Source: Flavobacterium turcicum (GTDB lineage Bacteria; Bacteroidota; Bacteroidia; Flavobacteriales; Flavobacteriaceae). From it: a stretch of DNA of 64,000 bases. Numbering within the stretch: the first letter of the stretch is position 1; the number at the start of each line of letters is the position of its first letter. The stretch lies in assembly GCF_011365745.1 (NCBI RefSeq), contig NZ_JAAOBY010000001.1, forward strand, positions 1-64,000, written 5' to 3'. The notes below the pieces were generated by a model. It ran no database searches. It saw only the letters and a program-made list of their open reading frames with translations, and was not told the origin of the DNA. The translations under genes and the position numbers were made by a program. Positions 54,326-57,069 of this stretch are shown one piece after another.

Positions 54326-54342
54326 TAAATCAAGCACAAAAC

Positions 54343-54430
54343 GCAATCACAAGTTAGGATTGCACTTTCTAATATCACCATTAAAACGTATTCCGAAATT
54401 GTATAGGAATTCGTTTTAATGGTTTTTTTA
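54343..54430 (+). terminator. Terminator after panD
   Basis: The main hairpin has 17-nt arms (54378-54394 with 54406-54422, one mismatch) and a T-run. A smaller hairpin with GCAATC/GATTGC arms (54343-54348 with 54358-54363) precedes it. Confidence 0.8.
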
Positions 54431-54559
54431 ATCCATTATATTTCGAAAACATAACAATTGAATACGTTTTAACCAATCACTTTTTGCAACTCGTAAACCA
54501 ATATTTGTGCTATCTTAGTACCTTTCATTTGCTACAGCGTAACAAAAAAAGAACCCCTT

Positions 54560-55708
54560 ATGAAACAAACCCTACTTTTATTTCTTTTTTCATTGAGTGT
54601 AATGGCACAAAAAACAAGCTTTGAGTTTGAGTCTAAGCAATTAGGTAGTACCAGAACACTTTCTATTGGGATTCCGGCATCACTAGAAAAAAACCCAAAT
54701 AAAAAATATCCTTTACTCATACTATTAGATGGAGATTATTTGTTTGATCCTTTTTACGGATCACTTAGCTATGGTGCGTATTGGGACGATATACCAGAAT
54801 GCATCGTTGTTGGAATCAATCAAAATACTGATGAAGAGCGCTACGCTGACTGTGAATTTGACGCTGAAACAGGACTTCCGAATAGTCAAAGTGCCAAATT
54901 TTATAATTTTATCGCAACGGAATTAGTTCCATTTTTAGAAAAAAAATACTCTATTGCACCCTTTCGAATCCTAGCAGGACATGATCTTACGGCAGGTTTC
55001 ATCAATTATTATTTGTACCAAGACCAATCTATGTTTGATGGATATGTGGCACTAGGAACCGAATTTGCCCCAGAGATGGAAACCAAAATAGCAACCGCCT
55101 TGAGTAAGGTTAAAAAACCTTTGTTTTATTACCATTCGAATGGTGAAGGCGATACTAAAAAAATTCAAACACCAATAAAAGAACTCGACTCACAACTCAA
55201 ACAAATCAGTAATCCAAACCTGCATTACAAGTTTGATAATTTTAGTGGCGCTTCTCATTACTCGTTAGTACTCTACTCCATTCCAAGTGCATTATATCAT
55301 TTTTTTGACACCTACAAACCAATCTCATCAACTGAATACAGCGAAAAAATTGCTGTACTTACATCAGGTTACGCAGACTATCTCCAAAACAAATACGACG
55401 TACTACAAAAAACACTCGGTATAAAAACTCCCGTCCGATTGAATGATTTTAAGGCAATAGAAGCCGCAATTTTAAAAAACAAAGCGTATCCTGAACTTGA
55501 ACAATTGGCACAAATGTCAAATAGAGATTATCCTAAATCAATGCTCGCAGAGTATCAATTGGGTTTGATGTATGAAAAAACAGGAGACACAAAAAGAGCG
55601 GCCAAAAAATATCAAAACGCTTCCCAATTAGATGAAATTGGAGATCTCACCAAAGACATGATGATCGAAAAATATGAAGATATGGTTAGCCAAACACCAA
55701 AAAAATAA
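54560..55708 (+). CDS. Esterase-like alpha/beta-hydrolase with substituted nucleophile
   Basis: This 382-residue protein has a signal peptide (about 1-16) and an esterase-D-like alpha/beta-hydrolase fold (LLILLDGDYLF, IVVGINQN). At the nucleophile elbow the expected Gly-His-Ser is Gly140-His141-Asp142 (LAGHDLTAG), while the His233 of ASHYSLV is present. The catalytic Ser is therefore missing, so the protein is either inactive or works in another way. The C-terminal part has a TPR-like helix pair (LGLMYEKTGDTKRAAKKYQNA). Its stop overlaps the start of radA by one base, so the pair is coupled. Confidence 0.85.
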   Translation: MKQTLLLFLFSLSVMAQKTSFEFESKQLGSTRTLSIGIPASLEKNPNKKYPLLILLDGDYLFDPFYGSLSYGAYWDDIPECIVVGINQNTDEERYADCEFDAETGLPNSQSAKFYNFIATELVPFLEKKYSIAPFRILAGHDLTAGFINYYLYQDQSMFDGYVALGTEFAPEMETKIATALSKVKKPLFYYHSNGEGDTKKIQTPIKELDSQLKQISNPNLHYKFDNFSGASHYSLVLYSIPSALYHFFDTYKPISSTEYSEKIAVLTSGYADYLQNKYDVLQKTLGIKTPVRLNDFKAIEAAILKNKAYPELEQLAQMSNRDYPKSMLAEYQLGLMYEKTGDTKRAAKKYQNASQLDEIGDLTKDMMIEKYEDMVSQTPKK

Positions 55709-57069
55709 TGTCAAAAGTTAAAACTACCTTTTTTTGCCAAAACTGTGGCGCACAATATACCAAATGGCAAGGGCAATGCAATTCCTGCAAAGAATGGAAC
55801 ACGATTGCCGAAGAAATTATCCAAAAACAAGAAAAAGTAGCTTGGAAAAGCGAGCCCACTCCAACTAGCAAAGCACCAAGACCACTGCGAATTGACCAGA
55901 TTGATTCAGCGCAAGAGATTCGTATGGACACTACTGATGGCGAATTGAACCGGGTTTTAGGTGGAGGAATTGTACCTGGTTCTTTAATTCTTTTAGGAGG
56001 TGAACCAGGAATTGGAAAAAGTACGCTTTTACTACAAATTTCCCTAAAATTACCTTACAAAACGCTATACGTTTCAGGAGAAGAAAGTCAGAAACAAATA
56101 AAAATGCGTGCTGAACGAATTACTCCAAGCGGAGATAATTGCTACATTCTTACTGAAACCAAAACGCAAAACATATTCAAACAAATTGAAGCCATTGAGC
56201 CTGAAATTGTAATCATCGATTCAATTCAAACTTTACATACGGATTATATTGAATCAACTCCCGGGAGTATTTCTCAAATTCGAGAAACGACCGCCGAATT
56301 GATCAAATTTGCCAAAGAAACCAACATTCCAGTGATTCTCATCGGACATATTACCAAAGACGGAAACATTGCAGGTCCTAAAATCCTGGAGCACATGGTA
56401 GATACGGTTTTGCAGTTTGAAGGCGACCGCAATCACGTTTATCGAATTTTACGCTCTCTAAAAAACCGATTTGGCTCTACAGCCGAAATAGGGATTTATG
56501 AAATGCTTGGCAGCGGATTACGGGAAGTAGCCAACCCATCAGAAATATTAATTTCGCACAAAAACGAGGAGTTATCAGGAACTGCAATTGCCTCGACTCT
56601 AGAAGGCATGCGGCCTTTGATGATAGAAATACAAGCACTCGTAAGCACTGCAGTTTACGGAACACCACAACGAAGCACCACGGGTTACAATGCTAAACGA
56701 CTCAACATGATTTTAGCAGTACTCGAAAAAAGAGCTGGTTTTAGGCTTGGCGCCAAAGATGTTTTCTTGAACATCACTGGAGGGATTTCGGTAGACGATC
56801 CCGCTATCGACTTGGCTGTAGTTGCTGCGATTCTATCTTCCAATGAAGATATTGCAGTCAATAAAGATTTTTGTTTTGCTGGCGAAGTAGGACTTTCGGG
56901 CGAAATACGCCCTGTGAATAGAGTAGATCAGCGAATTCAAGAAGCTGAAAAATTAGGATTTTCGACCATTTTTGTATCCAAATACAATAAAATCACTTTG
57001 AAAAACACAGGTATACAAATTAGAATGGTCGCCAAAATAGAAGATGTAGCGAGTGAGCTATTTGGATAA
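55708..57069 (+). CDS. radA: DNA repair protein RadA
   Basis: This RecA-like ATPase helps with recombination intermediates. The 453-residue protein has an N-terminal zinc finger (Cys10, Cys13, Cys24, Cys27), Walker A GGEPGIGKST near residues 96-105, the RadA motif KNRFG at 252-256, and a Lon-protease-like C-terminal domain. It is coupled to the pseudo-esterase gene by a one-base overlap. Confidence 0.97.
   Translation: MSKVKTTFFCQNCGAQYTKWQGQCNSCKEWNTIAEEIIQKQEKVAWKSEPTPTSKAPRPLRIDQIDSAQEIRMDTTDGELNRVLGGGIVPGSLILLGGEPGIGKSTLLLQISLKLPYKTLYVSGEESQKQIKMRAERITPSGDNCYILTETKTQNIFKQIEAIEPEIVIIDSIQTLHTDYIESTPGSISQIRETTAELIKFAKETNIPVILIGHITKDGNIAGPKILEHMVDTVLQFEGDRNHVYRILRSLKNRFGSTAEIGIYEMLGSGLREVANPSEILISHKNEELSGTAIASTLEGMRPLMIEIQALVSTAVYGTPQRSTTGYNAKRLNMILAVLEKRAGFRLGAKDVFLNITGGISVDDPAIDLAVVAAILSSNEDIAVNKDFCFAGEVGLSGEIRPVNRVDQRIQEAEKLGFSTIFVSKYNKITLKNTGIQIRMVAKIEDVASELFG

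Follow-up and report, generated by a model that had tools for sequence, protein, structure and literature searches.

A putative exported pseudo-esterase with aspartate at its nucleophile elbow, encoded directly upstream of radA in Flavobacterium turcicum

Does an esterase-like protein whose nucleophile serine has been replaced by aspartate still act as a hydrolase, and what has it to do with RadA, with whose gene its own is coupled? These questions are raised by an open reading frame of 382 codons in the window, by which we mean the whole stretch of DNA that was analysed, 64,000 nucleotides of Flavobacterium turcicum contig NZ_JAAOBY010000001.1. A sequence-only reading had suggested that the product may be a pseudoenzyme or may use a different mechanism. 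From the analysis presented here we consider it probable that the protein is an exported, long-lived pseudo-esterase whose pocket is retained for binding, in which Asp142 is not a nucleophile and for which co-translation with radA is operon layout only. No study of this esterase-like family was found in the open-licence literature.

Gene, fold and predicted export

The features of the locus, in window coordinates, are as follows.

54377 to 54430, plus strand: hairpin plus T run, probable terminator 3' of panD (folding against shuffles)
54560 to 55708, plus strand: probable pseudo-esterase gene, 382 residues (open reading frame; homolog set)
54560 to 54607, plus strand: probable signal peptide, residues 1–16, predicted; Gln17 is expected to become the N-terminus of the mature protein (Gln17 conservation)
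54614 to 55315, plus strand: alpha/beta hydrolase domain, PF00756, IroE/BES-like, approximately residues 19–252 (Pfam; model; fold matches 4w9r, 2qm0 and 3gff)
54983 to 54985, plus strand: Asp142 codon GAT, nucleophile elbow (direct reading; 215 linked homologs)
55151 to 55153, plus strand: Asp198 codon, probable triad acid (Asp in 209/215; shortly after model strand 188–195)
55256 to 55258, plus strand: His233 codon, triad histidine (His in 207/215; loop after model strand 221–228)
55328 to 55693, plus strand: C-terminal helical repeat, TPR-like, approximately residues 257–378 (TPR matches below cut-off; model helices; whole-length 4w9r match)
55708 to 57069, plus strand: radA, its start codon sharing one base with the pseudo-esterase stop

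The elbow sequence was read directly as G140-H141-D142-L-T-A-G, confirming the Gly-His-Asp elbow of the sequence-only reading, with aspartate in the place of serine. The product belongs to Pfam family PF00756 (Putative esterase), with an E-value of 3.1e-11 and a score of 44 bits, the cut-off being 22, and the C-terminal TPR scores lie under the Pfam cut-offs, with helices present in that region of the model.

The AlphaFold model, built with 63 sequences, has a mean pLDDT of 94.9. A strand spanning residues 132–141 is followed by a helix from residue 143, which places residue 142 at the elbow; Asp198 lies shortly past the strand 188–195 and His233 past the strand 221–228. In an alpha/beta hydrolase these three positions are those expected of the nucleophile, the acid and the histidine, respectively, and Asp198 and His233 are taken as a putative pair. 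The top solved fold match was 4W9R (Z 42, rmsd 2.0 over 357 residues, 30% identity), followed by BES (2qm0) and the IroE-like 3gff; Foldseek also placed 4W9R first. Among the 50 matches listed by each structure search no dehalogenase or epoxide hydrolase was named, families further down being possible.

The earlier view of the protein as secreted is supported by its N-terminus. A hydrophobic stretch is followed by Gln17, found in all 63 tree rows described below and in 202 of the 215 full-length linked homologs, with the cleavage site being placed by eye. According to the Q-rule described for Bacteroidetes, Gln stands directly after the signal peptide in substrates of signal peptidase I (PMC5837995), and Gln17, next to the putative cleavage site, would fit this rule, in keeping with predicted export.

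Residue 142 and the surrounding pocket across relatives

Homologs were collected at several taxonomic depths. With a threshold of E 1e-3, a match of some kind was obtained in 188 of the 199 genomes sampled within the genus, around 20 of these (judged by eye) having distant relatives only. The family sample gave matches in 212 of 249 genomes at 1e-8, the order sample in 58 of 196 at 1e-12 (the best outside the family being no better than E 1.5e-29) and the phylum-wide search in 80 of 296 at 1e-20, of which 51 lie beyond the family. Among titled loci the nearest comes from F. erciyesense, with 98% identity across the protein; a plasmid search returned distant matches only, with less than 60% identity in all 11 records. 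After removal of identical sequences, frames shorter than 240 residues and short weak matches, 242 translated homologs were aligned with the window copy, 220 being linked (panD, an LPG_synthase_TM gene or radA adjoining) and 22 unlinked. Five short copies of 270–273 residues were dropped from the linked rows, giving a full-length linked set of 215 (350 residues or more), all from Flavobacteriaceae and including the window copy.

Position 142 in these 215 homologs is occupied by Asp in 159, Gly in 48, Asn in 4, Glu in 2, Ser in 1 and Ala in 1; these proportions are not unbiased frequencies, since 138 usable regions were hand-picked from the search lists, partly favouring divergent and tandem cases, and some genomes contribute more than one row. 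The serine nucleophile of an active PF00756 esterase is thus missing from 214 of the 215. Of the 22 unlinked relatives aligned with them, 18 have Ser, the remaining four having Gly, Thr, Arg and Glu, and all 20 class- and phylum-level relatives examined, one gene each from a hand-picked 20 of the 46 matching genomes, have Ser. We infer from this distribution that the serine was lost early in the lineage occupying the panD/radA neighbourhood. Orthologs bearing a normal serine would have pointed to a mutation confined to this locus; a local mutation or sequencing error was considered and rejected, as Asp is also present in a 98%-identical locus and in most homologs.

Two groups of exceptions were noted. 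A single full-length linked homolog (L100) has Ser142, in an elbow reading GHSFTAN with codon TCG, and retains His at 233 and Asp at 198; on its sequence it might be active, or have been re-armed. Separately, three unlinked Flavobacteriaceae proteins forming one group (L134, L135 and L136) are without both the Ser and the His, with elbows GNG, GNT and GDR, and possibly constitute a second pseudo-esterase branch.

The aspartate itself might be thought to serve as nucleophile. Haloalkane dehalogenases and epoxide hydrolases have an invariant Asp nucleophile that forms a covalent ester intermediate, and a conserved nucleophile of this kind was suggested at the outset by the nearest ortholog set, with Asp in 45 of 46; that candidate was overturned by the wider homolog set. 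Residue 142 is nearly constant within the genus (Asp 109/117, Gly 7, Asn 1), such that the residue there may matter, and the combination Asp142-Asp198-His233 occurs in 153 of the 215 linked homologs. Beyond the genus the constancy fails, with Asp in 50 and Gly in 41 of 98 homologs from the other genera sampled, and the same lineage holds the 48 Gly, 4 Asn and 1 Ala forms. Moreover, the closest folds listed are siderophore, feruloyl and related esterases. A true Asp nucleophile in the manner of dehalogenases and epoxide hydrolases is accordingly very unlikely, and a mechanism with Asp as key residue finds no support as a property of the family, since Gly, Asn, Glu or Ala replace Asp142 while most of the pocket stays.

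The looseness of position 142 was quantified on a tree of 63 linked rows, from which columns 139–146, 198 and 233 had been left out. At least 15 changes were counted at position 142, a rough count on a quick tree with SH-aLRT support only and many weak forks, against 2 at Asp198 and 3 at His233. Scored as acid or non-acid only, position 142 still changes 12 times, which also argues against an Asp nucleophile. An earlier tree to which 18 unlinked rows had been added gave 20 changes at this position over all 81 rows. Given its presence in only 159 of the 215 homologs and these repeated changes, Asp142 is not an essential nucleophile. On the 63-row tree, Asp57 does not change, Arg94, Gly140 and Tyr190 change once each and Asn149 three times; of the 382 columns, 121 are more stable than position 142, and the median column changes 20 times. 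As judged from the alignment and tree, position 142 is looser than the surrounding pocket, yet not free.

What is tolerated at the elbow may have more than one origin. The strained backbone of a nucleophile elbow is tolerated by Gly, Asn and Asp, and relief of this strain is a plausible reason for finding these three residues there. Equally, a single transition in an Asp codon can yield Gly or Asn, and mutation of this kind may in part have determined which substitutes occur.

The genes are nonetheless maintained. Pairwise dN/dS values, computable for 96 of 98 close pairs, range from 0.015 to 0.115 and lie around 0.05, with three Gly-Gly pairs at 0.049–0.060, so that the Asp and Gly forms are both maintained genes. 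The loss of the catalytic residue across orthologs, together with strong purifying selection on the gene, supports the pseudoenzyme reading. It also makes it most improbable that this is a functionless esterase gene, decaying or locally mutated; some genomes of the genus have no ortholog, as decay would allow, but the low dN/dS, the intact frame and the near-uniform Asp of the first ortholog set all speak against it.

The histidine and acid of the triad have been retained to a much greater extent than the nucleophile. His233, which the sequence-only reading had recognised as kept, is present in 207 of the 215 homologs (the other eight having 4 Tyr, 3 Glu and 1 Pro) and Asp198 in 209, both at places matching the model strands. 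This is stricter than a dead site needs and could mean that some chemistry remains. One form of such chemistry would be a non-covalent enzyme, in which His233 and Asp198 jointly serve as a general base towards water or the substrate, with nothing more than small size or polarity required of residue 142. Such an enzyme would allow Asp, Gly and Asn at the elbow, and it is consistent with the retention of both His233 and Asp198 in 43 of the 48 Gly forms, with the few tree changes at these two positions, with the similar strictness of Arg94, Asp57, Asn149 and Tyr190, and with the low dN/dS. However, 8 of the 215 homologs are without His233, 6 are without Asp198, the solved relative 4W9R is without the His, and no replacement nucleophile was recognised at the level of sequence. 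We regard a non-covalent enzyme as unlikely, if still worth serious consideration, and favour a pocket retained for binding.

Coupling to radA and the gene neighbourhood

The final base of the TAA stop (55706–55708) doubles as the first base of the radA ATG, and domain checks identified the upstream genes as panC (PF02569) and panD (PF02261). The radA product comprises a zinc ribbon, an AAA ATPase and a Lon/ChlI-type C-terminus. The hairpin on the panD side has a folding energy of −20.5 kcal/mol (z −6.2 against shuffles); it was not returned by a terminator consensus scan, whose loop limit is 8 bases, the loop here being 11 bases. With this terminator-like hairpin standing between panD and the esterase gene, the latter and radA probably form their own transcription unit here. 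A sigma-70-type promoter scan gave a score below the shuffle mean.

The layout is widely shared. Among the 215 linked loci, panD lies upstream in 209, and an LPG_synthase_TM gene is present in the stretch fetched in 155, and the window is one of 58 loci with panD within 500 bases. The LPG_synthase_TM membrane gene (PF03706) is missing from window positions 54326–54559, and a search of the window's genome with a Bizionia protein, run without a positive control, gave no match. Where more than 300 bases downstream were available, radA was present within the stretch fetched in 196 of 212 loci. In the 186 loci with radA within 250 bases, the spacing is 10 bases or less in 134 and the same one-base overlap recurs in 81. 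Such recurrence of the overlap, like that of Asp142 in the linked homologs, goes far past what chance would give. In some genera (loci L083, L088, L090, L091 and L094), the neighbourhood of panD, the LPG_synthase_TM gene and radA contains two or three copies in tandem; each of these loci has one short copy (270–273 residues), and three of the five short copies are without His at 233.

Overlap and close spacing of this kind could suggest that the protein works together with RadA, or takes part in regulating it by way of translational coupling. RadA is a cytoplasmic recombination factor, whereas the esterase-like protein is predicted to be exported, and 16 of the 212 loci have no radA in the downstream stretch fetched. 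Furthermore, we looked at eight genomes of the genus, picked for a weak best match in the genus search. All eight have a full-length radA (77–97% identity), and their best matches to the family profile reach at most 118 bits, compared with 466 or more for radA-linked members; the esterase gene can therefore be missing while radA stays. In one of them (G045), radA and panD are 97% and 95% identical to those of the window and stand 86 bases apart with no esterase gene between them, a gene order that is read as either a natural deletion or a never-gained state. The order in a second (G193) is panD, LPG_synthase_TM gene, radA, and in a third (G022) the visible part of an LPG_synthase_TM gene lies upstream of radA. 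The other five show no panD or LPG_synthase_TM gene in the 1.5 kb upstream of radA; either radA stands elsewhere in these genomes or the neighbour genes lie further off. A functional partnership with RadA is thus hardly credible. The pairing of a secreted protein with radA, which the sequence-only reading had found odd, stands as a conserved gene layout: the coupling is real and widespread, but is not evidence of joint action.

Comparison with known systems and implications

The closest solved relative, 4W9R, is Coch_1243 from Capnocytophaga ochracea, the target T0852 of CASP11 and T94 of CAPRI, described in the CASP/CAPRI account (PMC5030136) as an uncharacterised protein of two domains and a putative esterase. 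It shares the two-domain architecture over the full length (profile E 6e-91), but, as aligned by sequence, its elbow residue is Glu, its counterpart of Gly140 is Ala and that of His233 is Val, which takes it further from a triad than the window protein. The siderophore and related esterases of PF00756 (IroE-like 3gff, BES 2qm0, Fes, PfeE and EstB) have the fold in common, and 3gff and 2qm0 also match the sequence profile. These esterases are named serine hydrolases, siderophore hydrolases or esterases, whereas the Ser is replaced in the window protein, and BES, at 275 residues, is too short for the helical repeat. The Ser-bearing PF00756 relatives of Bacteroidota fall in the same alignment and are mostly around 340–440 residues long, several matching the profile to position 360 with the helical part included. 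They differ in their elbows, mostly GHSxGG, and in their surroundings: the stretches fetched, those of the 20 class- and phylum-level relatives included, contain neither radA nor panD nor an LPG_synthase_TM gene.

Replacement of the serine in an alpha/beta hydrolase has a parallel in DPP6 (Asp) and DPP10 (Gly) (PMC4350108). As described in that source, the triad His and Asp of DPP10 are present and still hydrogen-bonded, both proteins are inactive, and restoring the Ser did not bring the activity back. DPP6 and DPP10 are, however, membrane-anchored members of family S9B with a beta-propeller, their partners being Kv4 channels, and the likeness is one of analogy only. In the fly, a DPP10 whose site resembles that of DPP4 is reported to be an active peptidase (PMC4873792); by that account activity can persist or vary inside such a family, which calls for caution over the single Ser form, L100.

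Taken as an exported pseudo-esterase, the protein would no longer hydrolyse esters via a covalent intermediate. The retained pocket, with its His-Asp pair, may bind a ligand or partner in the periplasm, and the helical repeat may provide a docking surface. The elbow Asp would not be a nucleophile; it would be tolerated there and might be of use locally, and co-translation with radA would represent a stable operon layout and not joint action with RadA.

Annotations as 'esterase' in this lineage may consequently be wrong. The lineage constitutes a natural experiment, in which one locus can be followed through many genera with Asp, Gly, Asn, Glu or Ala at the elbow and with natural absence of the gene beside an intact radA. 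Whether a His-Asp pair that has no nucleophile binds or catalyses can be tested with it, in a family for which the solved relative 4W9R exists. Should the protein prove to be a non-covalent enzyme, Flavobacteriaceae would have in their periplasm a natural branch of the siderophore-esterase group that works without a nucleophile.
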